Of a DNA stretch of 64,000 nt, positions 3,046 through 18,897 are shown one piece after another. A program made the position numbers and the translations under genes. The notes under the pieces are model-generated. The model saw only the letters and a program-made list of their open reading frames with translations, was not told the origin of the DNA and ran no database searches. The DNA is from Bordetella genomosp. 2 (GTDB lineage: Bacteria > Pseudomonadota > Gammaproteobacteria > Burkholderiales > Burkholderiaceae_B), in contig NZ_NEVT01000003.1 of assembly GCF_002261345.1 (NCBI RefSeq), positions 1,364,001-1,428,000 on the forward strand, read 5' to 3'. Numbering within the stretch: the stretch's first letter is position 1; every line of letters starts with the position of its first letter.

Positions 3046-3061
3046 AACCGGCAGAGTCTCC

Positions 3062-4657
3062 ATGCACCACCAGCGCATTCTCATTCTTGACTACGGTTCG
3101 CAAGTCACCCAACTGATCGCCCGGCGCGTCCGCGAAGCCGGCGTCTATTCGGAAATCCACCCGGGCGACGTCGACGACGCCTTCGTGCGCGAGCAGGCGG
3201 GGCAGGGGCTCAAGGGCATCATCCTGTCCGGCAGTCATGCTTCCGCCTACGCGGAAGACTCCCTGCGCGTGCCGGCCGCCGTGTTCGACCTGGGCGTGCC
3301 GGTGCTGGGTATCTGCTACGGCATGCAGTCGATGGCGCAGCAGCTGGGCGGCACGGTCAGCTTTTCCGACCACCGCGAATTCGGCTACGCCGAGGTGCGG
3401 GCGCATGGCCACACCAGGCTGCTGGACGGCCTGGCCGATTTCACCACCCCGGAAGGCCACGGCATGCTGAAGGTGTGGATGAGCCACGGCGACAAGGTCA
3501 CCGAGCTGCCGCCCGGCTTCAAGCTGATGGCCTCGACCCCGTCGTGCCCGATCGCCGGCATGGCCGACGAAAGCCGCGGCTTCTACGCCGTGCAGTTCCA
3601 TCCGGAAGTGACCCACACGGTGCAGGGCAGGGCCATGCTGTCGCGCTTCGTGCACGAGATCTGCGGCTGCCAGGGCGACTGGAACATGCCCGACTACGTG
3701 TCCGAAGCCGTGGCCCGCATCCGCGAGCAAGTGGGCAGCGACGAGGTCATCCTGGGCCTGTCGGGCGGGGTGGACTCTTCCGTCGCGGCGGCGCTGATCC
3801 ACAAGGCCATCGGCGACCAGCTCACCTGCGTGTTCGTCGACCACGGCCTGCTGCGCCTGGACGAAGGCAAGCAGGTCATGCAGACCTTCGCCGAGAACAT
3901 GGGCGTGAAGATCGTCCACATCGACGCCACCGGGCAGTTCATGGGTAAGCTGGCCGGCCAGGCCGACCCGGAAGCCAAGCGCAAGATCATCGGCCGCGAG
4001 TTCGTCGAAGTGTTCCAGGCCGAGGCCGCCAAGCTCAAGAGCGCCAAGTGGCTGGCCCAGGGCACCATCTACCCCGACGTGATCGAATCGGCCGGCGCCA
4101 AGACGGGCAAGGCCACCTCGATCAAGTCGCACCACAACGTGGGCGGCCTGCCGGACACGCTGAACCTGCAACTGCTGGAGCCCTTGCGCGAACTCTTCAA
4201 GGACGAGGTGCGCGAACTGGGCGTGGCGCTGGGCCTGCCGCCGCAGATGGTGTACCGCCATCCGTTCCCCGGCCCCGGCCTGGGCGTGCGCATCCTGGGC
4301 GAAGTCAAGCAGGAATACGCCGACCTGCTGCGCCGCGCCGACGCCATTTTCATCGACGAACTGCGCAGCACCATCGACGAGACCAGCGGCAAGAGCTGGT
4401 ACGACCTGACCTCGCAAGCCTTCGCGGTGTTCCTGCCGGTGAAGTCGGTGGGCGTGATGGGCGACGGCCGCACCTATGAATACGTGGTGGCCCTGCGCGC
4501 GGTGCAGACCTTCGACTTCATGACGGCCGACTGGGCGCCGCTGCCCCACGCGCTGCTGGCCCGGGTGTCGTCGCGCATCATCAACGAAGTGCGCGGTATC
4601 AACCGGGTGGTGTACGACGTGTCGAGCAAGCCGCCGGCGACGATTGAGTGGGAATGA
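3062..4657 (+). CDS. guaA: GMP synthase (glutamine-hydrolysing)
   Basis: Converts XMP to GMP using glutamine and ATP. The 531-residue protein starts [20 protein letters not shown]. It has the class I amidotransferase domain with nucleophile Cys85 in GICYGMQS and the [10 protein letters not shown] His/Glu pair, then the ATP pyrophosphatase P-loop [13 protein letters not shown] and the C-terminal dimerisation region ending [11 protein letters not shown]. The last 15 bases, including the stop, are the left attachment site of the mobile island, so insertion leaves the protein sequence intact. The longer upstream open frame from 2837 overlaps guaB and is not used. Confidence 0.98.
4643..4657 (+). 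other. attL core: 3' end of guaA
   Basis: ATTGAGTGGGAATGA, the final codons (IEWE, stop) of guaA. It recurs with one change (A to G) at 16802-16816 in the same orientation. Tyrosine integrases of this class restore the target gene end on insertion, which fits the intact guaA here. Confidence 0.8.
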
Positions 4658-4788: not shown

Positions 4789-4945
4789 GGCATGGTAGAT
4801 GGTACGATTTGAACCTGATGCCATGTTCGGCACTCGATACCATGCCGCCTCTGATGGAGTTTTCATGGTATTTAATTTAGGTAACACATTGTTCTTAAAG
4901 AGTTTTTTTGAGGATTTGTGGGGCTTTTTGAGCATGGTATTTTTG
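4789..4945. other. repeated CATGGTA motifs between attL and int, possible integrase arm sites
   Basis: The stretch holds CATGGTA or its complement TACCATG several times: GGCATGGTA near 4789, TACCATGCC near 4839, CATGGTATTT near 4865 and TGGTATTTTT at 4935-4944. The same TGGTATTTTT decamer recurs close to attR at 16725-16734. Repeats flanking the core on both ends are typical of arm-type binding sites for tyrosine integrases. This is inferred from repetition only. Confidence 0.4.
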
Positions 4946-4965
4946 AGAGGAAACCCAACCCGACC

Positions 4966-6174
4966 ATGCTGACTGATACCAAGCTGCGCAACCTCAAGCC
5001 AAAGGACAAGCTCTACAAAGTGAATGACCGTGACGGCCTCTACGTGGCCATCACGCCAGCGGGTTCGATTTCATTCCGCTACAACTACTCGATCCACGGC
5101 AGGCAGGAGACAATCACCTTCGGCCGCTACGGTGTCGGAGGGATCACGCTAGCGGAAGCCCGCGAACGGCTGGGCGAAGCCAAGAAGATGATCGCCGCAG
5201 GGAAATCTCCAGCCAAGGAGAAGGCGCGGGACAAAGCCCGCGTCAAGGATGCAGAGACATTCGGCGCGTGGGCCGAGAAATGGTTGCGCGGCTATCAGAT
5301 GGCGCCCAATACCCGAGACATGCGCCGCTCGGTCTACGAACGCGAGTTAAAGCCGAAATTTGGCAACCAAAAACTGGTAGAGATTACCCATGAGGACTTG
5401 CGAGCGCTGACAGACGCCATCGTAGAACGAGGCGCACCGGCAACAGCGGTGCATTCGCGAGAGATCGTCTTGCAGGTCTACCGCTGGGCCATCGAGCGCG
5501 GCCAGAAGGTCGAGAACCCGGCCGATCTGGTGCGCCCCTCGACCATCGCCAAGTTCGAGCCGCGAGATCGAGCACTGACGCCCGATGAAATCGGCTTGAT
5601 GTACCAGTACATGGAGCGCATTGGCACCACGCCTTCCATTCGGGCGGCCGCCAAGCTGCTGTTGCTGACGATGGTACGTAAAAGCGAACTGACTAACGCA
5701 ACGTGGAGCGAGATCAATTTCACCGAAGCGCTTTGGACAATCCCCAAGGAGCGGATGAAGCGCCGCAACCCCCATTTGGTGTTCCTTTCGAGGCAGGCGC
5801 TCGACATTTTCATAGCTCTGAAAACCTTCGCGGGCGGCTCGGAGTACGTGCTGCCATCGCGCTATGACTCGGACTTGCCGATGAGCAGCGCCACGCTCAA
5901 TCAGGTGCTCACGCTGACCTATCGTCTGGCCCAGAAGGAAGGGCAGTCGCTTGGCAAGTTCGGACCGCATGACCTGCGGCGCACAGCCAGCACGCTTCTA
6001 CATGAGGCGGGCTATAACACTGACTGGATCGAGAAGTGCCTTGCGCACGAACAGAAGGGGGTTCGCGCCGTCTACAACAAGGCCGAGTACCGCGATCAGC
6101 GCCGGGCAATGCTTCAGGATTGGGCGGACATGATCGATGAGTGGACAATCAGGAAGCCCCGCCTCCAGGACTGA
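4966..6174 (+). CDS. int: tyrosine recombinase/integrase, P4 type
   Basis: A 402-residue site-specific recombinase for island excision and insertion at guaA. It starts MLTDTKLRNLKPKDKLYKVN, the usual N-terminus of P4-like integrases (DUF4102 domain); a GTG 16 codons upstream is in frame but runs through repeat motifs. The core-binding SAM-like domain (about 95-185) precedes the catalytic domain with Arg in TMVRKSELTNATW, the HDLRRTASTLL box, a late HEQKGV His and the tyrosine nucleophile in RAVYNKAEY. It sits next to attL reading inward, and a terminator follows directly. Confidence 0.95.
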   Translation: MLTDTKLRNLKPKDKLYKVNDRDGLYVAITPAGSISFRYNYSIHGRQETITFGRYGVGGITLAEARERLGEAKKMIAAGKSPAKEKARDKARVKDAETFGAWAEKWLRGYQMAPNTRDMRRSVYERELKPKFGNQKLVEITHEDLRALTDAIVERGAPATAVHSREIVLQVYRWAIERGQKVENPADLVRPSTIAKFEPRDRALTPDEIGLMYQYMERIGTTPSIRAAAKLLLLTMVRKSELTNATWSEINFTEALWTIPKERMKRRNPHLVFLSRQALDIFIALKTFAGGSEYVLPSRYDSDLPMSSATLNQVLTLTYRLAQKEGQSLGKFGPHDLRRTASTLLHEAGYNTDWIEKCLAHEQKGVRAVYNKAEYRDQRRAMLQDWADMIDEWTIRKPRLQD

Positions 6175-6205: not shown

Positions 6206-6233
6206 AAATGCCCACTTTGGTGGGCATTTTTTT
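6206..6233 (+). terminator. intrinsic terminator after int
   Basis: AAATGCCCAC (6206-6215) pairs perfectly with GTGGGCATTT (6220-6229) around a TTTG loop, followed by TTTT. It separates int from the replication operon. Confidence 0.85.
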
Positions 6234-6421: not shown

Positions 6422-6460
6422 ATTAAACCTCGGACGATGACAAAACGAGGTATTCGGTGT
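6422..6460 (+). promoter_or_regulatory. leader/ribosome-binding region shared with the trbJ operon
   Basis: These 39 bases match the reverse complement of 11762-11800 at 36 positions. Both copies contain CGAGG or TGAGG as ribosome-binding site and place the start codon (GTG here, ATG for trbJ) at the same point. This fixes the GTG at 6459 as the start of the AlpA-like gene. Confidence 0.7.
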
Positions 6461-6689
6461 GGAAAGAGAATTAAGGAGAGCGAGTAAAGTTCTCATTAGC
6501 AAAAAGCAGCTGCTGGAGATGATTCCACTGTGCGAGCGCACGATCTACAACTTTGAAAAGCAGGGGAAATTCCCTCAGCGCATTGCACTCAGCAGCCGCA
6601 AGGTCGTGTGGGATTTGGCTGAGGTTGAGGCATGGATTGATGCGTGCAAACATTCCAGCCCGGCCCCTCGCCCCGGAATGGGGGCTTGA
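6459..6689 (+). CDS. AlpA-family DNA-binding regulator / excisionase-like protein
   Basis: A 76-residue protein with one MerR-like winged helix-turn-helix: LISKKQLLEMIPLCERTIYN, then FPQRIALSSRKVVWDLAEVE and a WIDACK helix. AlpA-type proteins control integrase genes of P4-like elements or act as excision factors. The start is GTG at 6459, supported by the shared leader. It is the first gene of an operon with repA and repC (3-bp gap to repA), so it probably links excision with replication. It is the only recognised transcription factor in the island apart from TraJ and is a candidate to bind the TGTCC/GGACA sites. Confidence 0.8.
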   Translation: MERELRRASKVLISKKQLLEMIPLCERTIYNFEKQGKFPQRIALSSRKVVWDLAEVEAWIDACKHSSPAPRPGMGA

Positions 6690-6692
6690 ATT

Positions 6693-8310: not shown

Positions 8311-8393
8311 AGCGTCGCACACCCGCCCGATAGCGTCGCACAACCGCCCGGTAGCGTCGCACAGCCGCCCGAAACGTCGCACACCCGCCCGGA
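8311..8393 (+). repeat. four tandem 21-bp iterons, probable oriV
   Basis: Units start at 8311, 8332, 8353 and 8374; consensus AGCGTCGCACAnCCGCCCGn. The fourth lacks one base near its start. They begin directly after the repC stop. Tandem repeats of about 20-22 bp next to repC are what IncQ origins look like. Confidence 0.85.
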
Positions 8394-8804
8394 GTTAGCA
8401 GGATATTCAGGATATTCAGATCCTGCGCGGCACAGCCCGCGCTTGAGGCGCGGTCCGGCCTTGCCAGTCGGCCTACGGCCGTTGGGCACCAAAAAAGGTA
8501 GGGCGGGCCTGCCGTCGTCGACGCGGTTAGTTCCGTGGATTACCCACCGGTCGCAGCACCTGGTCGAGCCGTTGAAACCGGCAAAAAGACATCAGGCACC
8601 AAAAAGGGAAGGGCAGGGCCAAAACGAGCATAAGGCCTCTAACGGCCTGCGAAATCGTCCAAAATCCCTCCTGTATGGGCCGTGGTGGCGTTTTTTCAGT
8701 GTCGGAATGGGGGTTGTGGCTGTCATGTGTGAAAACTTCTCACAGCGCTATACAGGCCGTTTTTGCGGTGTGTAATAGACGGAGAAGCTGCGGCAGGAAA
8801 ACAA
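8394..8804. other. non-coding part of the replication origin region
   Basis: No convincing gene in about 410 bases. It contains AGGATATTCAGGATATTCAG just after the iterons (possible melting region), a palindrome CGGCCTACGGCCG near 8469, and two imperfect direct repeats of about 25 bp beginning GGCACCAAAAA at 8485-8509 and 8595-8620. In IncQ origins two single-strand initiation sites lie beside the iterons; these repeats are candidates, but that is inference. Confidence 0.5.
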
Positions 8805-8826
8805 AACCCCGCACTTAGGCGGGGTT
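8805..8826 (-). terminator. terminator of the trbJ-trbL operon
   Basis: AACCCCGC/GCGGGGTT stem with a 6-base loop; on the minus strand it is followed by TTGTTTT. It ends the minus-strand trb operon 22 bp after its last gene. Confidence 0.8.
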
Positions 8827-8847
8827 GTTTGGGTGGCTGGCCAGCGA

Positions 8848-9168
8848 TCAGCTATTGTCGCGCTTCTCCTGCCTTTGAGCTTCCTGTGCGGCTTGGATGG
8901 CCATCAACACTTGCTGGTTTAGAGCGGCGTTATTCTTGCTGCCAAGCAGCGGTAGACGGTTCAGCGCCTGTGCCCCGGAAAACATGCGATAGGAAGCTGA
9001 CAGGGCGAGCGGGCTTACCCGAAGCTGTAAGGCCGTGTATTGGCGATCCAGCCTATCAAGCTGTGGCCCGTAGCCCTTGCTACGTAGCCATCGGCCGAGC
9101 GCCCACATGCCGATAGCGAAGGTCGAGGCGAATACTACAAATCCAGCGAATATCAGAATGTCAAACAT
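8848..9168 (-). CDS. small membrane protein of the trb operon, function unknown
   Basis: A 106-residue protein with one N-terminal membrane segment (about residues 3-27, FDILIFAGFVVFASTFAIGM) and a soluble, Gln/Ala-rich C-terminal tail (NQQVLMAIQAAQEAQRQEK) likely to be helical. It is the last gene of the operon; its ATG follows the trbL stop after 2 bp, the same stop-NN-ATG spacing as the other junctions. I do not recognise a family. Context suggests it joins TrbL in the inner membrane. Confidence 0.65.
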   Translation of the reverse strand: MFDILIFAGFVVFASTFAIGMWALGRWLRSKGYGPQLDRLDRQYTALQLRVSPLALSASYRMFSGAQALNRLPLLGSKNNAALNQQVLMAIQAAQEAQRQEKRDNS

Positions 9169-9170
9169 GG

Positions 9171-10775
9171 TTATTTCTCCAGTTGATCGTTGTTCGAAGC
9201 GGTGCCCTGCGCGTCGAGCGAAGCGAGGCGACCGGGAGTAGAACTGGTGTCCGAAGCTGGTCGGATAACATTAGATTCCTCGACTACCGTTTCCGCGCCG
9301 TTGGCCGGGGCTGTCGAGTTGGCATCGTCGGAAACAGGTGGTGGAGAGCCTGCGCCAAGAGACAAAGAGTGCGCGTTCTCCATGCCCGGCACTGCCATCG
9401 AGGCCATTACGCCGAGCATCTTTGCACCACCATTGGCCGCTTGGGAAAGTGCGTTGCCGGAGCTGACAACTCCCCCTTTTGGTGTCGCTTGCTGGTCGTT
9501 GTTGTCGTTGCCCTGCGCCGCTTTTCCGGCCTGCTTGGCTGCCTGCTGCACTCCGCTGCTAGGATGCTGCGGCGCGGCCTCCGGCGTTTGTGGTGCGCCG
9601 CTACCGCCCACTCGGGCACCTACCGACGCCGCGCCCTTGGCCGCCGTTTGGCCGCCAGTGCTCGCGCCGATACCAGAGGTCGCACCGCCCCTACCTGTTG
9701 CGGCCGCTGCGGGCGCACCACCACTGGCAAAGCTGGAATTGATTGCGGCGGCCAGACCGCCGCCGCCAATCCCTCCGGCACCCGCCGCACCGGTAGCGCC
9801 GCCAGTCCCAGCAGCGCCGAGAGCACCGGCAGCAGCAGGAGCCGCAGCCCCTGCCGTGGCGATGGTGGCCGCCGCTGCGGCGGCCCCGGCAGCACCGGCT
9901 ACCGCCATCCCGCCAATGGCGGAGCCGCCGCCCATCGATGTGCCGCTTATCATGCCGCCGATCAAATCAGGGATGGTCTTCGTCAGATAGCAGCACACCA
10001 AGGCCAGACCGACCATCGTCATCAATGACGCTTCGTCGTTGGTATAGGCCGCTAACCACTGCTTAGCCGACTGTACGATCAGGCCGACAATCAGCGCTAA
10101 AATGAACAGTTTGGCTCCGATTGCGACGGTAAAACGCATGGGCGCAGTTGCAAAGTCCCGCGTCCATTGCGAACCACCAAAGCCAAAGAACAGCACAGAT
10201 GCGTTGATGATCACGTAGGACTCTACGAGCGTCACAAACATGAACGCTGCGATGAAGGCGAAGCACGCCAAGACCAGCACAGCGCATACAGCGATCAGAA
10301 TTCCCTTGGCCGGAGAAAACACTGAAATGCCTTCCACCATGGTGCGGCCGAAATCCAGCGCAACTGCGAGCATGTCGCCGGGTTCTAATGCACGGCCAAG
10401 ACCGCTTGCCGATGCTGCCGCATCGCGGAAGCTATCGACAATGGCCGTCGACCACTCCACGGAATAAGTCATGACTGCGAGGAAGAAACCGATCACCATC
10501 ACGAAGCGCAGCAGTTCGCCGACAATCTCGCCGAAATCAGCTTGCTTCATGACCAGAGGCATAAGCGTCCATACGAACTGGATGGTGGCCAGCAGCCAGA
10601 ACAGTCTAATGGCGTAGTAATACAGTTTTCCTGACCACTGGTGCGACTGCTGCAGAACGAGATCGAGAAGGCCCTGAACCGATGTATCGGCGTGGGACAG
10701 GTCGTTCGCAGCCATAGCATTTCCGGCGACAAGCACGCTCGCTAGGACAAGGAACAACAACAGACGACGTTCCAT
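9171..10775 (-). CDS. trbL: TrbL/VirB6-like inner-membrane channel protein
   Basis: A 534-residue polytopic protein with an N-terminal signal-like segment (ends AMAANDLSHAD), then about five to six membrane helices up to residue 290, including FFLAVMTYSVEWSTAIVDSF and VGLALVCCYLTKTIPDLIGG. The VESYVIINASVLFFGFGGSQ region is typical of TrbL. Residues 290-530 are low-complexity Ala/Gly/Thr/Pro, as in other TrbL tails. TrbL forms part of the inner-membrane pore of P-type conjugation systems. Only TrbJ and TrbL of that system are present, so it should work with, or replace a subunit of, a helper apparatus. Confidence 0.9.
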   Translation of the reverse strand: MERRLLLFLVLASVLVAGNAMAANDLSHADTSVQGLLDLVLQQSHQWSGKLYYYAIRLFWLLATIQFVWTLMPLVMKQADFGEIVGELLRFVMVIGFFLAVMTYSVEWSTAIVDSFRDAAASASGLGRALEPGDMLAVALDFGRTMVEGISVFSPAKGILIAVCAVLVLACFAFIAAFMFVTLVESYVIINASVLFFGFGGSQWTRDFATAPMRFTVAIGAKLFILALIVGLIVQSAKQWLAAYTNDEASLMTMVGLALVCCYLTKTIPDLIGGMISGTSMGGGSAIGGMAVAGAAGAAAAAATIATAGAAAPAAAGALGAAGTGGATGAAGAGGIGGGGLAAAINSSFASGGAPAAAATGRGGATSGIGASTGGQTAAKGAASVGARVGGSGAPQTPEAAPQHPSSGVQQAAKQAGKAAQGNDNNDQQATPKGGVVSSGNALSQAANGGAKMLGVMASMAVPGMENAHSLSLGAGSPPPVSDDANSTAPANGAETVVEESNVIRPASDTSSTPGRLASLDAQGTASNNDQLEK

Positions 10776-10777
10776 AA

Positions 10778-10966
10778 CTAGTACCCCTTGACGCCGCCGC
10801 GAGTGTTCGGGCGCGCCTCAAATGCGGCATCAGCGTCACGCTGGTGCCGTTGTTGTTCCGACACCGCAGTGCATTCGCTATTGCCTTGAACAGCCACAGT
10901 GACCACAGAACCGGCCAATGCGGACGCGGTGCAAATCAGGGCTATAAGCCATTTCGAAATAGTCAT
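10778..10966 (-). CDS. small exported protein in the trbK position
   Basis: A 62-residue protein with a hydrophobic N-terminal segment (KWLIALICTASALAGSVVTV) and a short polar remainder. In P-type operons the gene between trbJ and trbL is trbK, an entry-exclusion lipoprotein, but no good lipobox is visible here, so the call is positional. It ends FEARPNTRGGVKGY, nearly identical to the end of TrbJ (FEARKNTRGGVKGY). The ATG at 10966 follows the trbJ stop after 2 bp, and AAGGGG within the trbJ tail provides its ribosome-binding site. Confidence 0.7.
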   Translation of the reverse strand: MTISKWLIALICTASALAGSVVTVAVQGNSECTAVSEQQRHQRDADAAFEARPNTRGGVKGY

Positions 10967-10968
10967 TC

Positions 10969-11763
10969 TCAGTACCCCTTAACGCCGCCGCGTGTGTTTT
11001 TACGCGCTTCAAACTGTTGTTCGGCGGCTTCGCTAGCGGCCGTCCGGTCGCCTTGCTGGGCCATGTAGTTGCCCTGCATATTGATTTGCGTGGCTACCAG
11101 ATCGCGCAGCTTTTGCAGTTGCTGCACGTTCTGCGAGGCTATTTCGTTGCCCGCCTGAATCGCCTGCATCCGGCCAGCGGCCGACTGCGAACGGGAAACC
11201 ATGCGGGCAAGTTGCGCGTCCTCAGACTCGAAAGTGCCGGTATTGAGGTTCGCCGCTTCCATCGCCGTTTTCACGTTGTCGCGCCCCTGCTCTGACCACT
11301 TCTGATAACGATCCCGCGCCGGGACTGCCTCCGAGTTCGCGGCTTGATTCAGGTAGGACTCGAAGCCCGGAAACTGCGTGTTGAACTGCGAATCCATGTT
11401 CTGGATTTGGCGGCCCAAGGCCTGCGACTTCGTGTAGATATTCACCACGCTTTGCAGGTCGGCCGCGATGCTGCCGAACATGGAGTTGGGCAAGCTCAGA
11501 CCCTGCGTAACCATGTTTTGATACTGCTGAATCTGCGTTGCCAGTTGCTGGGCCGTGTTCAGTTGCGTGTTGACCGCTTCGGCGTACTCGTACATCTGCT
11601 GATAGAACGTCGAGCAGTTCGAGCAGTAGATGGCATAGGCCGGAGCCGGTGCCATGTAGAGACTTACACCAAGGCCTGCGCTTGCCATTGCTAGAGCGAG
11701 CGCCGCGCCTCGACCCAATTTTCGGGCGGCATAAGCCGACGTTTTTTGCGATTCCATTTCCAT
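10969..11763 (-). CDS. trbJ: TrbJ-like periplasmic conjugation protein
   Basis: A 264-residue exported protein with a long signal peptide ending PAPAYA (cleavage near residue 44), then IYCSNCSTFYQQ and a mostly helical, Gln-rich body (TQLNTAQQLATQIQQYQNMV). This fits TrbJ, the VirB5-like minor pilus component of P-type systems. First gene of a four-gene operon joined by 2-bp gaps. The ATG at 11763 is supported by the leader shared with the AlpA-like gene; an ATG two codons later is less well placed. The protein ends FEARKNTRGGVKGY, a tail shared with the next gene. Confidence 0.88.
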   Translation of the reverse strand: MEMESQKTSAYAARKLGRGAALALAMASAGLGVSLYMAPAPAYAIYCSNCSTFYQQMYEYAEAVNTQLNTAQQLATQIQQYQNMVTQGLSLPNSMFGSIAADLQSVVNIYTKSQALGRQIQNMDSQFNTQFPGFESYLNQAANSEAVPARDRYQKWSEQGRDNVKTAMEAANLNTGTFESEDAQLARMVSRSQSAAGRMQAIQAGNEIASQNVQQLQKLRDLVATQINMQGNYMAQQGDRTAASEAAEQQFEARKNTRGGVKGY

Positions 11764-11800
11764 ACCGAATACCTCATTTTGTCATCGTCCGAGGTTTGAT
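11762..11800 (-). promoter_or_regulatory. leader of the trbJ operon, copy of the alpA-repA leader
   Basis: Reverse complement agrees with 6422-6460 at 36 of 39 positions, including ribosome-binding site and start-codon position. The element implies common control of the replication and trb operons. Confidence 0.7.
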
Positions 11801-11828
11801 TATTGACCGATATGGAGCAGTTTTAAAT

Positions 11829-11852
11829 ATGCGGATAATCTTGTATCCGCAT
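11829..11852. promoter_or_regulatory. perfect 9-bp inverted repeat upstream of trbJ
   Basis: ATGCGGATA (11829-11837) and TATCCGCAT (11844-11852) with a 6-bp spacer, 66 bp upstream of the trbJ start. It is a likely operator; the factor is unknown. Confidence 0.5.
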
Positions 11853-11868
11853 AGAATTCAATGATTTA

Positions 11869-11986
11869 TGTCCGTAAACTGTCCGTCAATCTTCACGAGA
11901 TTGTTTCTCAACGCTATGATTTTGATCGCGTTTCTCATGACAAGCGGAACGAGCTTGGTTGTCCGTTTTGATACATTTTGCGGACA
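11869..11986. promoter_or_regulatory. cluster of TGTCCG half-sites upstream of the trb operon
   Basis: TGTCCG occurs at 11869-11874, 11880-11885 and 11960-11965, with its complement CGGACA at 11981-11986. The last two form TGTCC-N17-GGACA, 27 bases overall, the same geometry as the element at 6233-6259. The 11764-12032 stretch otherwise has no gene. Confidence 0.45.
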
Positions 11987-12013
11987 AAAAAAAGCCCACC
12001 GAAGTGAGCTTTT
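11984..12013 (-). terminator. intrinsic terminator with TTCG loop
   Basis: Read on the minus strand: AAAGCTCAC, TTCG, GTGGGCTTT, then a T run. One G-T pair in a 9-bp stem. It ends the minus-strand pair of small genes starting near oriT, 18 bp past the last stop. Confidence 0.85.
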
Positions 12014-12032
12014 GATAGGGCAGTGCGCGGCG

Positions 12033-12257
12033 TCAGTGGGCAGCGTAATAGGGATTCTGTGCGCGATAGAGGTCACGCTCCGGTTCAGGAATGTGTAGCG
12101 TTTCAAGGTGCCAATCTTCGAGTGAAGAAGCCAGCTCGGCCGCTATGCGCTGGGCTTCCATAACGCTGTCGCCATGCCGCCCGCTGGCTCGACCGAGGCA
12201 GGCTTGCAGTTCGTTGAGTTGATTGGCCAATGCGCTGATGCGGTGAGCTGTCTTCAT
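12033..12257 (-). CDS. small helical protein of unknown function downstream of the traD-like gene
   Basis: A 74-residue protein beginning MKTAHRISALANQLNELQAC. The N-terminal two thirds are predicted helical, followed by WHLETLHIPEPERDLYRAQN. The ATG at 12257 comes 2 bp after the stop of the TraD-like gene, so the two are co-transcribed away from oriT. I do not recognise a family. Context suggests a role in DNA processing at oriT. Confidence 0.6.
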   Translation of the reverse strand: MKTAHRISALANQLNELQACLGRASGRHGDSVMEAQRIAAELASSLEDWHLETLHIPEPERDLYRAQNPYYAAH

Positions 12258-12259
12258 GA

Positions 12260-12469
12260 TCAATTCCCCTTGCTGATCCTTTCCACGATTTTGTCGAATT
12301 CTTCCCGGACTTGATCGTCCGTCAGCTCAAGATTAACCAATCCTGACTTTATTGCAATTCTTCCGATTCTTTCTGCTGCCTCATTGTCGAGTTTTGCCAG
12401 TCTTGCTTTCGCCATTTCAAGCTCTGAAAGGGCATCAGAACGGCGCTCTGCGAGGGTTTTTCGTGCCAT
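12260..12469 (-). CDS. TraC/TraD-like conjugal transfer protein
   Basis: A 69-residue protein, MARKTLAERRSDALSELEMA onward, with KARLAKLDNEAAERIGRIAI and a C-terminal TDDQVREEFDKIVERI helix. This pattern resembles the small TraD proteins next to oriT in rhizobial and IncP-like systems. The start was set at ATG 12469 because ACGGAG lies 5-6 bases upstream; the open frame extends 27 codons further without a better start. It reads away from oriT, divergent from traJ. Confidence 0.65.
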   Translation of the reverse strand: MARKTLAERRSDALSELEMAKARLAKLDNEAAERIGRIAIKSGLVNLELTDDQVREEFDKIVERISKGN

Positions 12470-12657
12470 GATTACTCCGTTGTTTCTTGATGATCGATTT
12501 TCGAAAAAAAGCGCGTAAACGGAGGCTATGTTCTCACCTGAGTCTAGCAATTTACAAGGCTTAGATTTGGCTGGTCTAGCGGATGGCCTCTCAAAGCCCC
12601 TCCTTTTGGTGTCAGTCAGTCCTTGATGCTCATGAACTCAATCGGAAACGCATTTCT

Positions 12658-12749
12658 ATGCGAATGTACGCGATTCTACGCGATTAAAAGAATTGATTAA
12701 CGCGACGCTACGCGAATGTATGCGAATTAGCGCGAATGTGCGCGATTAC
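12658..12749. repeat. helically phased decamer array beside oriT
   Basis: Units with consensus (A/G)(C/T)GCGA(A/T)T start at 12658, 12668, 12678 and, after a degenerate 22-bp interval, at 12700, 12710, 12720, 12730 and 12740. Exact 10-bp spacing puts every copy on the same face of the helix. It lies between the TraD-like gene and the nic-like site, where IncP plasmids have a TraK wrapping region. The bound protein is unknown. Confidence 0.65.
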
Positions 12750-12763
12750 GCCATATTTTAATG

Positions 12764-12792
12764 GCGATTCTGCTCCAGTCGCATAGAATCGC
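12764..12792. promoter_or_regulatory. 8-bp inverted repeat in the oriT region
   Basis: GCGATTCT (12764-12771) and AGAATCGC (12785-12792), spacer 13 bp, between the decamer array and the nic-like sequence. Confidence 0.45.
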
Positions 12793-12801
12793 AGAGAAGT
12801 A

Positions 12802-12854
12802 GCAGGCAGGATGTGTGTTGTACGGGTACGGGCAGTCCCGCACCCGTACAACAC
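12802..12854 (-). other. oriT: origin of transfer, IncP-like nic region and hairpin
   Basis: Read on the minus strand, 12802-12812 is ATCCTGCCTGC, close to the IncP nic sequence (ATCCTG followed by C, cut after the G). Next to it a near-perfect hairpin has arms GTGTTGTACGGGT (12815-12827) and ACCCGTACAACAC (12842-12854), with an inner CGGG-CAGT-CCCG. In RP4 the TraJ site is an inverted repeat beside nic. The traJ-like gene starts directly to the right. Confidence 0.75.
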
Positions 12855-12886
12855 CGCCCCTTACTCACCTTCGGTTCGACGGCATC

Positions 12887-13312
12887 TTGCTCTGCGAGGC
12901 TAACCGTCGCTGCCGCGATGACAAACGGATAAGCACCAAAAGGAGGAGCAAGTACCGGTTAGAGCAAAGAGCCCGTAGACGCGGAAAACCCGTTGAGGTT
13001 TGGGTTACCGATGAGGAAAAGGCGGAGATCGACGCAAGGGCAAATAGTGCGGGTTTGTCTCGGTCAGCCTACATGCGTGCGGCCGGATTAAATCACCGTG
13101 TAGGAGCAATAGCCGATCTCGATGCTGTTCGTGACCTTGTCAAAGTAAATGGGGACTTTGGACGGCTCGCTGGGCTATTGAAATTATGGCTAGCGGAAAA
13201 GCGCGGTCAGGGTGCTCGGCCATTTGACGTGGAAGCGTTGATGATGCAGTTCAGAGAACTTCAGCATCAGACAAGAGCGATTATGAGCCGAATAGTATTC
13301 AAGAAAAAATGA
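12887..13312 (+). CDS. traJ: TraJ/MobC-like relaxosome protein
   Basis: The C-terminal 120 residues are clearly ribbon-helix-helix relaxosome type: VEVWVTDEEKAEIDARANSA, GLSRSAYMRAAGL, then LVKVNGDFGRLAGLLKLWLA and a helical tail ending IVFKKK. IncP TraJ binds the inverted repeat beside nic and recruits the relaxase. The start is uncertain: no ATG is in frame; TTG 12887 is listed, GTG 12815 lies inside the oriT hairpin, and a strong AAGGAGGAG at about 12940 has no good start codon after it. In IncP the relaxase gene traI follows; here it is missing and a terminator comes next. Confidence 0.75.
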   Translation: MLCEANRRCRDDKRISTKRRSKYRLEQRARRRGKPVEVWVTDEEKAEIDARANSAGLSRSAYMRAAGLNHRVGAIADLDAVRDLVKVNGDFGRLAGLLKLWLAEKRGQGARPFDVEALMMQFRELQHQTRAIMSRIVFKKK

Positions 13313-13337
13313 AAACGGCCCTAAACGGGCCGTTTTC
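13311..13337. terminator. bidirectional terminator between traJ and the OLD-family gene
   Basis: GAAAACGGCCC (13311-13321) and GGGCCGTTTTC (13327-13337), perfect 11-bp stem with a 5-base loop and A/T tracts on both sides. It begins inside the traJ stop codon and serves both converging genes. Confidence 0.85.
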
Positions 13338-13347
13338 AATATATCAA

Positions 13348-15120
13348 TTAAAGGCGCAACCAATCCATTGCTCTGCTAACAGATTGGTAGTCTGGAAGGC
13401 CAGCTTTATATTCCTCATTAGAAAGGCTGGTCATGAAGGTTATGTGGGCTGCACTTGTTTTGGCTATACCAAGGTGCGCTTCAATCGCGCCTTTCGTCCA
13501 TAGCCAAATGCCCATCGCTTTCAATTCTTCATGCAATCTTGCAATGCAGTCTATTGCGTTTTCTTCTTGGGCAAGTCTTTCGAAAGCCGCCGCAGCGGGC
13601 ATTCCATTATGTCTAGTAGGCAGCCCATCTGCATCAAGGCCAATGTGGCCGCCATTTCTTAATTCTTCCAGTATTGCCTTGCATGCGATGAGATCAGCAT
13701 GATCGGGAGCGAGCAGACCCTTAAGAGGAGCTATCCTAAAGGCAAAATCTAAATCTACAATCGCCTTGCAAGGCACTCCCATCGACCGCAATACTTTTAT
13801 AGTATCAGGAATATTGGGAGTTCCTCCGATATCAACAAATCCAATCTTATCTTCACCGGGAGTGGTTCCAAAAGAGTTGAGAAATATTGTAGGCAGAATT
13901 GTGCGTTCGGTTTTCCCTTCAGTGATTACGACTCGCTCGGAAAAAAGAATTTTACTCGAGTTTGAAAGGGCAAATAGCGCTTCTGACTGATGCTGGGCAT
14001 CATCAATTGCTGCTGCCACCGCATCCTTTATTCGTGGATAGCATCTTGTCCCTAAAGCTGCGCTTCTTCGTATGAGAAGGGTATTGGGGGCATCGTCCCG
14101 CGAAATCATATTTGCCGAATGCGTTGTAATGACCACCTGATAGCCGTCGCCAGCGAGTCGGCTTAAAGCTGCACGTACGACTTCGATAGCTTGGGGATGT
14201 AGATAGAGCTCTGGCTCATCAATCAGAAGGAGCGTCGTTCTACCAGCATTTCCACCGCCGGCTCTCCGAACTTCGGCTAGACACTTAATAAGCGCTATTT
14301 GTATAGAGCGTTGGGCGCCATGCCCAAATGACGAGGCATCCCTACCGTCAGGATTTTCGAACCCCTCTTCGAAAATCCGTATCGTCGCTGATTTCATGAA
14401 ATCAGAAAAATCTGGGACAGGTATGTGGGTCTTGGCCGAGACACCGGGAAACAGCTTGGACAGCTCGCCTTGAATACGGCCGTCGAGATCGACTAAAGTT
14501 TCGTCTTTATTCTCAGCGTTGGCTGAAAGACGCCTTCCGACGTCTTGCAGTGCCTCAGCAACAGCAGGCGAGTGCCGATCAATGACGGGAGCCATTATCT
14601 CTTTAAGAAGCTTGCCGATTGTGGTTCCGCTACCAAATTTCGCTACGTCCTCTGTGGCGTTTTCCATCGCTCCAATAAAAATAGGCTCGGGAAACAGAGC
14701 GCCTATTGCAGCGTCGATCCCTGCTGGATTGATAACCCATTCATCTTGACCGGCTTCTCGCCTTAATACTTCAAATCGTATCCCCGCAACTGCCTGCCCT
14801 GGGGTGGCTTGCGTGCGCCTAATACGTATCTGACCGTCAACGACAAGGGGCTCGATACGTCCACGGTGAGCATCACCAATCGCATCGAGCACTTCAGCAC
14901 TTATGCCAGAGATTTCCGCTTCTACAATAATTGGCTGATCGGCAAGGTGAAAGTCTTCTGGTGGGAGGCTAGATCGTTTTATTATCCAGCCAATAGCCCG
15001 AATAATATTAGTTTTTCCAGCGTTGTTGTAGCCAACCAAAGGAGTATAGTGCGAAAGTGGAAATATTCCGTCCGAGATTGATTTGAAATTCTGTATTCTA
15101 ATTTGTGAGATGTGATGCAT
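13348..15120 (-). CDS. OLD-family ATPase with C-terminal Toprim nuclease domain
   Basis: A 590-residue protein of the overcoming-lysogenisation-defect family. N-terminal ABC-type ATPase: ISQIRIQNFKSI start, Walker A GYNNAGKT (30-37), signature-like SFGHGAQRS (264-272), Walker B LLLIDEPELYLHP (297-309) and THSANMI switch His. The Toprim domain follows from about 393: catalytic Glu in VVITEGKTE (401) and the IVDLDF Asp pair (456, 458). Family members such as GajA are DNA endonucleases in antiphage defence. GGGAGGGG precedes ATG 15120. It is the downstream gene of a pair with the nuclease-like protein. No UvrD-like GajB partner is present, so this is not a canonical Gabija. Confidence 0.9.
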   Translation of the reverse strand: MHHISQIRIQNFKSISDGIFPLSHYTPLVGYNNAGKTNIIRAIGWIIKRSSLPPEDFHLADQPIIVEAEISGISAEVLDAIGDAHRGRIEPLVVDGQIRIRRTQATPGQAVAGIRFEVLRREAGQDEWVINPAGIDAAIGALFPEPIFIGAMENATEDVAKFGSGTTIGKLLKEIMAPVIDRHSPAVAEALQDVGRRLSANAENKDETLVDLDGRIQGELSKLFPGVSAKTHIPVPDFSDFMKSATIRIFEEGFENPDGRDASSFGHGAQRSIQIALIKCLAEVRRAGGGNAGRTTLLLIDEPELYLHPQAIEVVRAALSRLAGDGYQVVITTHSANMISRDDAPNTLLIRRSAALGTRCYPRIKDAVAAAIDDAQHQSEALFALSNSSKILFSERVVITEGKTERTILPTIFLNSFGTTPGEDKIGFVDIGGTPNIPDTIKVLRSMGVPCKAIVDLDFAFRIAPLKGLLAPDHADLIACKAILEELRNGGHIGLDADGLPTRHNGMPAAAAFERLAQEENAIDCIARLHEELKAMGIWLWTKGAIEAHLGIAKTSAAHITFMTSLSNEEYKAGLPDYQSVSRAMDWLRL

Positions 15121-15234
15121 TACCCCTCCCGCTATTGGTAATCAAAGTTAGATACTTTCAAGACTCACATTTAAAATAAAAACTATTGCGTTGATCGAGT
15201 GGCTTCATATCGAGATATTGAGTTTTTGTGAGCG

Positions 15235-16314
15235 CTAAGTCCCAGTTTTAAAATCAAGGTTTGGATGAATCTCGAAGCGCCACAGCGGTAATGCTTTTCC
15301 CTTGTAATCGCGAGGAATCTTCAAGCTGAAAATTTCAGGATCAAACCTAACGTCGAGTGCGACTATGCCTGTTTGGTCGTCAACAGTAAGCTCTCGAAAA
15401 GCTGTACTAATCATCGAGCTTAAATCCCCAATGATCTGAAAGTCCTGGTCCTCTGTGGGGTTCTCTGGCTTCATTTCGTGAGCGAAGGAAATAAGCCGTC
15501 CGTCAACCACGGTCGCAGGGGTTTCTGTTTCCGACCAATTTCCGTAGCGCATGAGGTAGAAGGCTAATTTTTGTTCATTCTCGTTGGTGATGGCAGTGCC
15601 TGCGCAGCTCATGCGAATATCGCGAATTGTAAATAGGGCGGTGCCGTTGTCTGCGACCATCGCCTTTTCATCGTTAGAATCACCGATGAACTCGATACGT
15701 AATGGAGGCAATGTTGCAATCATGCAATCACCTACAAGAAACATTTCGTTTCTAGCCAGTGCGTGAGGCAGGTCAATAAATATACTAGAACCGGAATCAA
15801 AGAAGGAGTCGGGAGGCAATAGTACCCATTTGTTTATTCGGGAGAAGTAGATCGCAATTTTGAGATCAGCTTTATTTATGTTTGAATATGAAACAAGTTT
15901 TTTTAGGTAGGATTTTTTCAGAGAGAAGCGTGAGCCAAGCGACTTCATATGAAAATTCTTTACCTCGACAAGGATTACATCTCCGCTGTTCGTTACAATC
16001 CGGTAGTCAGGCGGGATGAATTCATCGGAACTTGCGAATGCCGCTCCACTGTCCTCCTGCTTGATGTATTGGCATCCACCAAGTGCTCCTAATACATGAG
16101 CAAACATCGCCTCCACACGTTTCCCATGTAATACATTAGGATTATCTAGCGTCGCTTTGAGAGATGCTCCAATTTTTTGCTGAAACGCGCTAATATCTTC
16201 AGAAATGCCTATGCGATACCCATTTTGTCGCGATAAGGTAGTATAAAGCTCCAATGCATCGAAACTCTCCGCATTTCTCGATACGCGTTTCATTGCTTTC
16301 GCCCGCCCCCTCAT
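15235..16314 (-). CDS. putative PD-(D/E)XK nuclease-like protein paired with the OLD gene
   Basis: A 359-residue protein I do not match to a named family. Residues 64-120 have the layout of a PD-(D/E)XK nuclease core: a helix with Glu68 (GKRVEAMFAHVLGALGG), then PPDYRIV with Asp103, GDVILVEVKNF with Glu117 and Lys119. The rest is alpha/beta with no motif I recognise. Two starts are possible: ATG 16314 or ATG 16293, the latter with GAGGGGG upstream. It precedes the OLD gene on the same strand with 114 bp between them and is notably AT-rich. A two-gene nuclease plus ATPase/Toprim cargo is what an antiphage defence system would look like. Confidence 0.7.
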   Translation of the reverse strand: MRGRAKAMKRVSRNAESFDALELYTTLSRQNGYRIGISEDISAFQQKIGASLKATLDNPNVLHGKRVEAMFAHVLGALGGCQYIKQEDSGAAFASSDEFIPPDYRIVTNSGDVILVEVKNFHMKSLGSRFSLKKSYLKKLVSYSNINKADLKIAIYFSRINKWVLLPPDSFFDSGSSIFIDLPHALARNEMFLVGDCMIATLPPLRIEFIGDSNDEKAMVADNGTALFTIRDIRMSCAGTAITNENEQKLAFYLMRYGNWSETETPATVVDGRLISFAHEMKPENPTEDQDFQIIGDLSSMISTAFRELTVDDQTGIVALDVRFDPEIFSLKIPRDYKGKALPLWRFEIHPNLDFKTGT

Positions 16315-16515
16315 TTATGTTAAATATCCTAGTTTAAAATTGCTCTACCAAGATGCCAGTGAACGCTACTTTTTTCTACGTTCTCAAGCTAAAAATTGCT
16401 TCTTGATGACAGTGTTGCCGGTATCATGAGATTGACTCATGATGTATTAGGCGTGCAACTATGATAAATGCAACTTCCGCCGGAGTTGCGGCATGTTTTG
16501 GGAGGATGATGCTAA

Positions 16516-16716
16516 ATGAAGGACAGACCGCATGACACGGCGATGGCCGAGCACTTCCGCGCCGATCCGACCTATGCAGCGGAGCTGCTTGCTGAAGTTC
16601 GCCGCGACGGTAACTCCGCCGACGAGCTAACCATTCTGTTGCGGCAGATGGCCACGGCCTCGGAAGGTTGCTCGAAGTCGGATTACGCCGATACAGGGCG
16701 CGCTCTACCTCGCTGA
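16516..16716 (+). pseudogene. frameshifted antitoxin remnant (XRE-type addiction-module antidote family)
   Basis: The first 49 residues, MKDRPHDTAMAEHFRADPTY through ELTILLRQMATASEG, match the start of the 95-100-residue helix-turn-helix antidote family often partnered with HigB/RelE-like toxins. After that the frame breaks: pieces such as GLLEV and PIQGALYLADLN appear in the other two frames, and the open frame stops after 66 codons. The DNA-binding half is therefore lost. No toxin gene is adjacent. GGGAGG lies upstream of the ATG. Confidence 0.65.
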
Positions 16717-16801
16717 TTTGAACGTGGTATTTTTCATGGTTCAGTGAATAATTCTCTACTCAAGGTGCTGATTTAAAACATTTTTTTTTGTGTTATTTAT
16801 A

Positions 16802-16816
16802 ATTGAGTGGGAGTGA
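16802..16816 (+). other. attR core
   Basis: ATTGAGTGGGAGTGA, same orientation as the guaA end at 4643-4657 with one mismatch. Preceded by an AT-rich tract and by the TGGTATTTTT repeat at 16725-16734 that is also found near attL. Confidence 0.75.
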
Positions 16817-16854
16817 ATTGACTCCTTCGGGGACTATCGCCAGCTATCGAGAAT

Positions 16855-16892
16855 CCGCCGTAACGTGTTGATTCTTAAATGCGTCACGGCGG
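16855..16892. other. inverted repeat just outside attR
   Basis: CCGCCGTAACG (16855-16865) and CGTCACGGCGG (16882-16892) pair with one mismatch around an AT-rich 16-base loop, flanked by similar blocks CTATCGCCAGCTATCG and CTATCGGTGGCTAGCG. It may be the end of another element; purpose unknown. Confidence 0.4.
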
Positions 16893-16906
16893 CTATCGGT
16901 GGCTAG

Positions 16907-17131
16907 CGCCGGCCAGCAGAACAAGTCGGCGGTAAAACGGCGGCAAGAACCGGAGGCCGGATCAAGACCTTCCCGTTCACTATTGAAACCTACCCAGTCT
17001 TTGACGGTAGAAGCCTCCTCGGGAAAGCGGCTTTTATGCAGCTTTCCGGGCGTCAGCAGGTCTCCCGGCCCCTGCTGGTAAAAGCCGTCCCCAACGGGAG
17101 AAAAAGCGTCGCGACCTGGATCAGCAACTGA
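16907..17131 (+). other. reading-frame fragment without a start codon
   Basis: A 74-codon open stretch bounded by stops. Its translation looks protein-like (GRIKTFPFTIETYPVFDGRS, then RPLLVKAVPNGRKSVATWIS) but it has no start until an internal ATG near codon 47. It is probably the 3' end of a decayed gene. I do not recognise it. Confidence 0.35.
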
Positions 17132-17328
17132 TCAGCTGTGGCAAAGGCCGGCGTGATCCGGGCTTTGGCGGCGAGGCCAAACACGCGATGCAGCAGCGCG
17201 CCGACGTCCTGGCCGGGCAGAGGCTACGCGGGCGACGCGGGCAGCAGTTTGGACCACAAGTCATTGCCACGATGCGAGATGGCGGGGCCTGGAAGATCGG
17301 GCGAAATGGGGGGCTGTCAATTGCTTGA
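17098..17328 (+). pseudogene. possible relaxase (DUF3363-type TraI) remnant
   Basis: The frame reads EKKRRDLDQQLISCGKGRRD, then GFGGEAKHAMQQRADVLAGQ and RRGQQFGPQVIATMRDGG, AWKIGRNGGLSIA, stop. The last part resembles the C-terminus of VirD2-like relaxases with a DUF3363 domain (from memory), and the first part an earlier section of the same proteins, so a large internal deletion is likely. There is no start and stops lie just upstream. It is outside attR, so it belongs to an older or neighbouring element. It overlaps the end of the HxlR gene by 12 bp. Confidence 0.4.
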
Positions 17329-17697
17329 GCCATCACTCGCCATTTCATCGCCCGGAACCTTCTTCACGAATAGCGCATCACGCTGTTCCGCCCACTTCAG
17401 CATTGCATCCAACGCAGGGCACAAGGCTTGTCCCCAATCCGTTAGTCGGTATTCGACCTTGGGGGGAACCTGCGGATACAGCTTCCGGGAAACAACCCCG
17501 TCGGCTTCCAGCTGCCGCAATTGTTGGGCCAGCATCTTCTGGGAGATGCCCGGGATCAGCCGCTCGAAGTCCGAATAGCGTTGCACTTTTCCATCGAAGA
17601 GATGAAAAAGGATGATGAGCTTCCATCGGCCTTCCAGCAGTCGAAGGGCTTCCGCTACCCCCAGTGCGGCAGTGGCAGGCGTATATACCTTTCTCAT
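17317..17697 (-). CDS. HxlR-family transcriptional regulator
   Basis: A 126-residue winged-helix protein: LRLLEGRWKLIILFHLFDGK, then FERLIPGISQKMLAQQLRQL and KVEYRLTDWGQALCPALDAM, which are HxlR hallmarks. HxlR proteins bind as dimers and often sense oxidants or aldehydes. It is divergent from an NTF2-like protein and an SDR with a 94-bp intergenic region containing a long inverted repeat, so it probably controls them. Its 3' end overlaps a decayed frame. Composition is lower in GC than genes beyond 20 kb, which hints at transfer. Confidence 0.88.
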   Translation of the reverse strand: MRKVYTPATAALGVAEALRLLEGRWKLIILFHLFDGKVQRYSDFERLIPGISQKMLAQQLRQLEADGVVSRKLYPQVPPKVEYRLTDWGQALCPALDAMLKWAEQRDALFVKKVPGDEMASDGSSN

Positions 17698-17718
17698 GGA
17701 TCAGTAACTTACTTTTTA

Positions 17719-17786
17719 GTGCGTTCTTGCCGAATAGCGAGTCTATGTCGAAAATGCCTGTACGGCAATTCACCGCGAGAACGCAC
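17719..17786. promoter_or_regulatory. inverted repeat in the HxlR/NTF2-like intergenic region
   Basis: GTGCGTTCT (17719-17727) and AGAACGCAC (17778-17786) are perfect complements 50 bp apart; TTGCCG and CGGCAA inside them also pair. Two operator half-clusters for the divergent promoters is the simplest reading. Confidence 0.45.
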
Positions 17787-17791
17787 CAACC

Positions 17792-18118
17792 ATGGCTCTT
17801 TCACTACCAGATCCCATTTCTGCCTACTTCGAGCTCAGCAACGGCTCGGACACCGTTCGCGTCGACTACTGCTTCACGCAGGATGCGGTTGTTGTTGATG
17901 AAAGATACACACACCGAGGCCATGAGGCTATCCAGTCCTGGAAGCGTGAAGCACGGAAGAAATTTGAGTACACCGTTGAGCCTGTCAACGTTTCCCGAGA
18001 GGGTGACCGGATAACCGTTTTGGCAAATGTTGTCGGCAACTTTCCCGGTAGCCCTGTTCACCTTGACCATGTTTTTGAACTGGCGGACGACAAGATCAAA
18101 TCGTTGGAGATCCGCTAA
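17792..18118 (+). CDS. NTF2/SnoaL-like small protein
   Basis: A 108-residue protein with the cone-shaped NTF2-like pattern: [20 protein letters not shown], the [20 protein letters not shown] strand with a turn, and a C-terminal [19 protein letters not shown]. Such proteins can be isomerases, hydrolases or stress proteins; no specific substrate is visible. Its stop (TAA) shares a base with the ATG of the SDR, so the two are translationally coupled. Confidence 0.8.
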
Positions 18119-18897
18119 TGTCCCTGAACCTGGAACTACAAGGCAAGCGGGTCCTGGTGACGGCGGGTACCAAAGGCGTGGGAAAAGCTGTCGTTGACCT
18201 GTTCCGAGAACTCGGCGCGAAAGTGCTCACCACCGCGCGGGAGCAACCCGCCGATATGTCAGCAGACATTTTCGTCGCTGCTGACCTGACAACAGTCGAA
18301 GGCTGCAACTCTGTGGCAAATGCAGTTATTGCCAGTTTTGGCGGCGTGGACATCATCGTCCATGTCCTGGGTGGCTCGACCGCACCTGCTGGAGGCTTCG
18401 CGGCTTTGGGTGAAGAGGAGTGGCAACGCGAATTGAGCCTCAATTTGCTGCCCGCTGTCCGACTTGATCGCGCGTTGCTGCCTGGCATGTTGGCTCAAGG
18501 CGCAGGCGTGGTTATTCACGTCACTTCAATCCAGCGCGAGTTGCCTCTGCCGGAATCAACCACCGGCTATGCGGCAGCGAAGGCCGCGCTCTCGACTTAC
18601 AGCAAGAGCCTGTCGAAGGAGATTTCGCCCAAGGGCATCCGCGTCGTGCGGGTCGCGCCAGGCTGGATCGAGACAGAGGCAGCCGTGGCCCTTGCCGAGC
18701 GCCTGGCCTTGCAGGCTGGGACAGACTATGAGGGGGGCAAGAAGATCATCATGGACTCTCTAGGCGGCATTTCGTTGGGGCGACCATCAAAGCCCGTCGA
18801 GGTTGCGAATCTCATCGCCTTCCTGGCTTCGCCACGCGCGGCAACCATCACGGGTGCCGAGTATGTGATCGACGGCGGCACGGTCCCGACTGCATAG
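18118..18897 (+). CDS. short-chain dehydrogenase/reductase
   Basis: A 259-residue classical SDR. The cofactor-binding motif is TAGTKGVG at 15-22, followed by the conserved core, with the catalytic Ser in HVTSIQREL and Tyr-x3-Lys in [10 protein letters not shown]. The C-terminal [16 protein letters not shown] is typical of NAD(P)-dependent alcohol dehydrogenases of this class. The substrate is unknown. It is coupled to the NTF2-like gene and is likely controlled by the divergent HxlR protein. Confidence 0.9.

Follow-up and report, generated by a model that had tools for sequence, protein, structure and literature searches.

An OLD protein and a predicted PD-(D/E)XK nuclease as neighboring cargo of a guaA-integrated mobilizable element in Bordetella genomosp. 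2

A 64,000-nucleotide stretch of the Bordetella genomosp. 2 genome (contig NZ_NEVT01000003.1, positions 1,364,001 to 1,428,000; hereafter, the window) contains two adjacent minus-strand genes, one for a 590-residue OLD protein with ABC ATPase and Toprim parts (P0002, hereafter OLD) and one for a 359-residue protein with the predicted fold of a PD-(D/E)XK nuclease (P0001, hereafter P1). The question raised by this locus is whether these genes form a single two-gene defense system, as an earlier note on this DNA had proposed, or two separate pieces of cargo. Genome comparisons point to two independent cargo pieces rather than one new two-part system, and the best explanation of the locus, to which we assign a probability of about 0.62, is a guaA-integrated mobilizable element (window positions 4643 to 16816) with two independent anti-invader nucleases in its cargo slot. 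The positions given for both genes in the earlier note were exact, and family matches for OLD and the existence of relatives of P1 exclude chance open reading frames (ORFs). In what follows, L numbers designate loci, A numbers designate alignments or protein sets, and coordinates of features are collected in Table 1.

The proposal that P1 and OLD constitute one defense system, with the OLD ATPase as the sensor and P1 as an additional nuclease effector (or with these roles exchanged), draws on their arrangement: both are on the minus strand, P1 lies just upstream across a 114-nt gap, and a terminator-like site is found after OLD and none between the genes (such sites are consensus matches only, with 6 found versus 4.2 expected from shuffles). 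The gap itself shows no unusual RNA fold (z 1.36). P1 homologs elsewhere adjoin sensor-like genes, such as those for nSTAND3 proteins, which is also consistent with this proposal. However, none of the 42 non-self P1 loci surveyed (L002 to L043, partly redundant, with L037 cut close to P1) carries a P2-type OLD gene; no ORF of theirs scores above 88 bits with the OLD profile, versus 559 to 1,045 bits at 17 OLD loci (two of which, L046 and L047, had contributed to the profile). The six profile matches of 47 to 88 bits at P1 loci (L002, L003, L004, L024, L026, and L035) cluster together, and the L002 member of this cluster is a GajA-like gene from a UvrD-paired locus. Likewise, P1 is missing from all 17 other OLD loci surveyed (L046, L047, and L050 to L064, seven of them shorter than 9 kb).

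A direct comparison is provided by L087, a colinear island from the genome of another genus of the same family, which matches window positions 10940 to 15165 at 92.5% and 16374 to 16812 at 84% in blastn. Its OLD is 98.8% identical to that of the window and occupies the same slot without P1, all of which lies within the missing block. There is no clear insertion signature in the repeats around P1. None of the nine related islands, L083 to L091, carries P1, and a search of E. coli genomes with the OLD-plus-P1 stretch, distant mode included, gave no match. Furthermore, phage P2 Old functions as a one-gene system, according to a passage of PMC10568477. The surveys on both sides, together with L087, lend no support to a conserved two-gene system. 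The two genes seldom occur together, an outcome that the earlier note itself had named as refuting its reading, and a joint system of P1 and OLD appears quite improbable.

The element carrying the two genes is of a known kind: it resembles GIsul2 and the "IncP island" (as described in a part of PMC5704250) in its position at the guaA 3' end and in having a tyrosine integrase, RepA/RepC, TrbJ/TrbL, and an antitoxin-type ORF, and differs from them in its cargo of OLD plus P1. Parts of a 12.6-kb query were matched in 77 of 5,426 E. coli genomes, none of them over 80% of the query, with 15 of the 105 match places located on plasmids. In the six E. coli islands that were inspected (a nonrandom choice from the best 15 of the 77), the slot is, judging by gene families, filled with other, largely defense-type cargo: a distant OLD-like gene with 21% identity to P0002 in L083; PIN, CoiA, and PDC-S06 AAA genes in L084; type II restriction-modification genes and a gene annotated as abortive infection in L085; PDC-S06 AAA and nSTAND3 genes in L086; TIR, DUF4231, PIN, and CoiA genes in L090; and a type I restriction endonuclease gene in L091 (the latter two by annotation only). 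Six of the ten cargo proteins of L083 to L086 were matched in a PADLOC scan. The guaA gene is found just to the left of the island in five of these six cases, whereas L084 has prophage genes there. A survey of Stenotrophomonas, as presented in an excerpt of PMC11680222, likewise describes a diverse defense island beside guaA. These slot contents bear out the view that the window element carries defense-like cargo. The OLD-like gene of L083 (E. coli 05-3629, positions 16734 to 18455, 573 aa, 199 bits with PADLOC Old) is located after the relaxase gene.

OLD itself is of a known kind and probably acts alone. It matches AAA_15, AAA_21, and OLD-like_TOPRIM in Pfam and the Old model of PADLOC over residues 1 to 588 of its 590 (751.6 bits, 1.6e-226), in agreement with the identification in the earlier note; the next-best PADLOC model, AriA, scores 100 bits, and GajA scores 91 bits. 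By sequence, OLD is a member of the Class 1 (phage P2 Old) branch: only two phage records, both of them P2, cover at least 80% of it (33.6% identity over 99%). At 1e-40, it has no match in plasmid records and is found in 2 of 398 genomes of the phylum, its own included. The mutation-tested residues of P2 Old reported in a portion of PMC7049728 were mapped through alignment A3, in which 10 of 11 functional residues are retained. These are the ATPase residues K37, D299, H306, and H332 (K36, D301, H308, and H334 in OLD), the Toprim metal-A residues E398, D453, and D455 together with K550 (E401, D456, D458, and K554), and the metal-B ligands E402 and E543 (E405 and E547); the exception is metal-B ligand Asp541, which corresponds to Ala545. 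Thus, OLD is similar to P2 Old in length, domain order, and functional residues, and an OLD of this type stands as a single gene in L087; in the window its neighbors are traJ and P1. The differences are its overall divergence (34% identical), Ala545 in place of Asp541, and its carrier, which is a mobilizable element and not a P2-like prophage.

Comparison with named defense systems does not provide a home for the two genes as a pair. GajA belongs to the same OLD superfamily, but the window OLD is far closer to Old than to GajA, and assignment to Gabija was rejected, as no UvrD-type helicase (GajB) was found among the flanking ORFs scanned. PARIS was rejected since P1 has no DUF4435 (AriB) match in Pfam and OLD scores 752 bits with Old versus 100 with AriA. 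Retron Eco8 was also rejected, since the scan of flanking ORFs revealed no reverse transcriptase and OLD scores 50 bits against a cutoff of 250.

What is new at this locus, as far as sequence comparison goes, is P1, which represents an uncatalogued PD-(D/E)XK family that is often found on mobile elements with partners differing by lineage. Its placement in the PD-(D/E)XK superfamily is well supported by an AlphaFold2 model (predicted local distance difference test score [pLDDT], 88.3; predicted template modeling score [pTM], 0.85) whose best match is archaeal Hjc (best E value, 7.5e-7; template modeling [TM] score on the target, TMt, up to 0.80 for 2wcw_D). All 22 matches to solved structures at E values of ≤0.001 are Holliday junction resolvases; SPARDA chains come next (E values from about 1e-3, TM scores near 0.2), and the best named matches in a viral structure library are mostly Holliday junction resolvases as well. 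The fold match to Hjc supports the PD-(D/E)XK assignment that the earlier note had read from residue spacing. Of the four residues named there, Asp103, Glu117, and Lys119 are invariant in all 24 members of alignment A2, whereas the column of Glu68 is not (Glu in 20, Ala in 3, and Asp in 1). The invariant columns also include G64, R66, F71, K85, E87, V118, N120, and Y143, and the relatives in A2 share 27 to 47% identity with P1.

In contrast to its fold, the sequence of P1 does not lead to any known family. None of its scores passes a curated cutoff of Pfam or NCBIfam, and PADLOC returns no match at E values of ≤1; sequence and profile searches of solved structures returned nothing meaningful; and the 24 members of A2 gave scattered weak matches to Pfam, PADLOC, and PHROGs, none shared by more than three members. 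Membership in the Hjc family (PF01870) was rejected because P1 scores 15.8 bits, below the Pfam cutoff of 21.1. P1 shares with Hjc and other PD-(D/E)XK nucleases the core fold and the D-ExK residues and differs from Hjc in its almost threefold greater length and in having helices at the N terminus and a C-terminal half with no recognized relative; modeled alone, this half has a pLDDT of 85.1, and none of its 807 hits to PDB folds has an E value of ≤0.001. Hjc works as a dimer, and the Hjc-like core suggests that P1 may also be a dimer with DNA as its target; its fold and invariant residues make it a predicted metal-dependent nuclease. The start codon is probably Met8 at position 16293, giving a protein of 352 aa, since it is preceded by a G-rich stretch, GAGGGGGCGGGCGAAAGCA, resembling a ribosome-binding site, and several homologs begin with MKR or MER there.

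Relatives of P1 were found in 43 plasmid records, 2 E. coli phage records, 6 viral contigs, and 26 genome loci, the last coming from a scan with alignment A1; a single-sequence scan of genome contigs yielded none (24 pattern matches, 0 confirmed). Among the related genomes sampled, P1 is found in its own genome only, that is, in 1 of 300 of the order (A1), 1 of 9 of the genus (A2), and 1 of 369 of the class (A2). No paper on P1 was found in text searches, which cannot go by sequence and would miss the family under no name or another name.

The neighbors of P1 at other loci, where gene calls are mechanical if the locus is unannotated, are diverse. A gene for an nSTAND3 protein is tightly linked to P1 on the same strand in L018 (by Pfam), and L027 has a 1,328-aa gene of the same cluster; these genes for 1,328- to 1,329-aa proteins lie immediately upstream of P1 (L018, 2988 to 8056; L027, 2844 to 7978). 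The Bradyrhizobium loci have a trypsin-like gene upstream of P1 and genes for 166- and 912-aa proteins downstream (L016 by Pfam; L015, L017, and L019 by cluster). SMEK genes are found beside P1 in L011 and L040, and GIY-YIG genes in L002 and L004 (annotated) and in L003 and L024 (by cluster), while at other loci, L012, L021, and L032 among them, no partner is evident. In Rhizobiaceae loci L002 to L004, L024, and L035, a GajA-like plus UvrD (Gabija-type) pair is convergent with P1. In a near-identity search, the E. coli form of P1 was detected on the chromosomes of 28 of 5,426 genomes; in all four that were inspected, an FRG gene, P1, and a third gene form a cassette beside tail fibre-type prophage genes in differing chromosomal surroundings. 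The third gene is annotated as HEPN in L066 (27.6 bits with Pfam HEPN, just under the cutoff of 28.4) and as hypothetical in L067, L092, and L093. This prophage setting suits P1 as defense cargo without proving it. From such neighborhoods, one could envision P1 as an interchangeable DNA-cutting effector of unrelated defense cassettes (nSTAND3 NTPase; trypsin-like protease plus large protein; FRG plus HEPN; SMEK; GIY-YIG; and P2-type OLD), switched on in each case by the local sensor, a tentative idea that we consider rather unlikely.

The structural matches raise another possibility, that P1 is a DNA-processing nuclease of mobile elements, e.g., one that resolves junctions or replication intermediates and aids integration or replication, with no part in defense. 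The exclusive matching, at E values of ≤0.001, of its model to Holliday junction resolvases and the many homologs on plasmids and viral contigs are consistent with this, as is an opposite-strand ORF, tyrosine integrase-like by eye only, that ends 14 to 20 bp downstream of P1 in L031, L040, and L042. Nevertheless, its absence from nine of nine relatives indicates that P1 is dispensable for elements of this kind, it occupies part of the variable cargo slot, the four E. coli prophages carry it next to tail fibre genes together with an FRG gene, and its score is below the Pfam Hjc cutoff, all of which make a processing role unlikely. Alternatively, P1 could be a stand-alone restriction-type endonuclease that reads DNA modification or sequence, similarly to Type IV enzymes or Shedu. 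It does combine a PD-(D/E)XK core with a separate C-terminal domain, no methyltransferase was recognized among the scanned neighbors, and 1 of the 24 family members weakly matches REase_II (1.4e-3); however, there are only weak scattered family matches, none at a curated cutoff, and because no counterpart of the C-terminal half was found among solved folds, no modification-reader domain is recognized in P1. A restriction-type function is thus rather unlikely.

Several observations weigh against two independent anti-invader nucleases. With no terminator-like site between them, P1 and OLD may share a transcript and, in this strain, might work together. Four of the ten cargo proteins from related islands (three of four in L084 and one of three in L085) have no PADLOC match at 1e-5. 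A comparison of near and far neighbors of P1 in 28 representatives of the 42 loci revealed no defense enrichment and is uninformative: the 112 near proteins (set A4, from 114 listed, with two very long L022 ORFs dropped) matched 199 PADLOC families, and the 145 far ones (set A5, from 169 listed, with 24 short ones dropped) matched 252, figures that count families and not matching proteins. The residue corresponding to P2 Asp541 is Ala here and in the 71% identical L047 protein, whereas L046 has Asp; according to passages of PMC7049728, the D541A mutant of P2 Old lost killing as measured by colony-forming units but kept a slow-growth effect, so the activity of OLD may differ from that of P2 Old. 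The same source gives, for the ligand that corresponds to D541 when taken by order, Ser478 in T. scotoductus OLD and Thr506 in B. pseudomallei OLD. Finally, what the analysis shows is the identity of the genes, the predicted fold, the conserved residues, the kind of island, and that P1 is separable, whereas nuclease activity, a defense role for either gene, co-transcription, and the RecBCD trigger are inferred.

With these points considered, two independent anti-invader nucleases remain the preferred explanation, and a mechanism can be envisioned by analogy with P2 Old, which, according to passages of PMC10568477 and PMC7049728, kills recBC-deficient cells and needs both its ATPase and its Toprim residues to do so, and which, in an excerpt of PMC13261556, is stated to detect the inhibition of RecBC by Gam and thereafter to cleave a host tRNA. 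P0002 may act in a similar manner, an analogy weakened by Ala545: its ATPase part would sense blocked RecBCD-type DNA-end processing, such as that caused by phage Gam proteins, whereupon nucleic acid cleavage by its Toprim part would stop the infection. P1 would be a separable metal-dependent PD-(D/E)XK nuclease, probably dimeric like Hjc, with its C-terminal domain recognizing the target or an activator, and would have been gained by, or lost from, the slot as one 1.2-kb block.

The borders of the element are marked by the attL and attR repeats; E. coli GuaA gives a 63.5% match to window positions 3059 to 4654 (tblastn), and homology to L083 and L085 stops at 16816 and 16820, respectively (blastn). 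ARAGORN found no tRNA genes in the window. The right part of the island has 45 to 49% G+C (12 to 17 kb, in 2-kb steps) versus about 62 to 73% beyond 19 kb. The integrase is 94 to 99.5% identical to those of L083 to L086, L090, and L091 from E. coli, while the RepC-like ORF has no blastp match in L083, L085, or L086. No relaxase gene was recognized in the island, whose ORFs were put through family scans in part, and no relaxase-sized ORF follows the TraJ-like gene, the place where traI is annotated in L083 to L085 and not in L086, L090, or L091. The IncP island has its own MobP and GIsul2 has no relaxase, so the window element, with its TraJ-like gene kept, appears intermediate. Within 12815 to 13348, cargo directly follows the TraJ-like gene with no traI; L087 likewise lacks traI, and the annotations of L086 and L090 list none. 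An inverted repeat of 55 bp (copies 91% identical) is found at 6417 to 6471, before repA, and at 11751 to 11805, before trbJ; both sites recur among the compared relatives and could be a shared regulatory site. The small ORF at the right end, taken in the earlier note for a broken antitoxin gene, is not visibly broken: ORFs of similar length (65 to 77 aa) at the corresponding end of L083, L085, and L087 align with it over 64 to 65 residues at 75 to 82% identity, and L090 and L091 have ORFs that align less strongly. It has no match of its own in Pfam or NCBIfam, and no toxin was recognized beside it, with no search aimed at toxins made.

Table 1. Features of the window element and of compared loci
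Feature	Coordinates	Strand	Remarks
attL	4643..4657	+	guaA 3' end, ATTGAGTGGGAATGA
Island tyrosine integrase	4918..6174	+	Pfam Phage_integrase 4.2e-22
RepA-like helicase	6693-7571	+	76-99.6% identity to "helicase RepA family protein" of L083-L086
RepC-like	7546-8310	+	Matches L084 (91%), L088 (99%)
trbL	9171-10775	-	NCBIfam TrbL_P 9.8e-78
trbJ	10969-11763	-	NCBIfam TrbJ_Ti 4e-79
TraC-like	12260-12550	-	Pfam TraC 1.1e-8
TraJ/NikA-like relaxosome protein	12815-13312	+	Pfam NikA-like 4.3e-20
Terminator-like hairpin just downstream of OLD	13310..13338	-	12 pairs plus T run
OLD, ABC ATPase plus Toprim, 590 aa	13348..15120	-	P2 Old (Class 1) branch
Block with all of P1, missing from L087	15166..16373		1208 bases; window 15165/16374 = L087 5811/5818 (blastn)
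P1, PD-(D/E)XK nuclease by predicted fold, 359 aa as called	15235..16314	-	Hjc-like core plus C-terminal half
Small "addiction module antidote"-type ORF, 66 aa	16516..16716	+	So named in L083 and L085
attR, island right end	16802..16816	+	ATTGAGTGGGAGTGA; 15-bp attL repeat with one mismatch
FRG-P1-third-gene cassettes (E. coli prophages)	L066 6489-10411; L067 6489-10345; L092 4489-8345; L093 4489-8345		

Altogether, the domain reading of the two proteins in the earlier note was correct and their pairing was over-read, an attractive two-gene interpretation being corrected by a natural case with one partner missing. The guaA-type mobilizable element emerges as a carrier whose slot takes differing, largely defense-type genes. 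P1 is the part worth following: the repeated FRG-P1-third-gene prophage cassette makes its function directly testable in E. coli laboratory strains, and its unnamed nuclease family, found here in Proteobacteria, Actinomycetota, and phages, is one that PADLOC misses.

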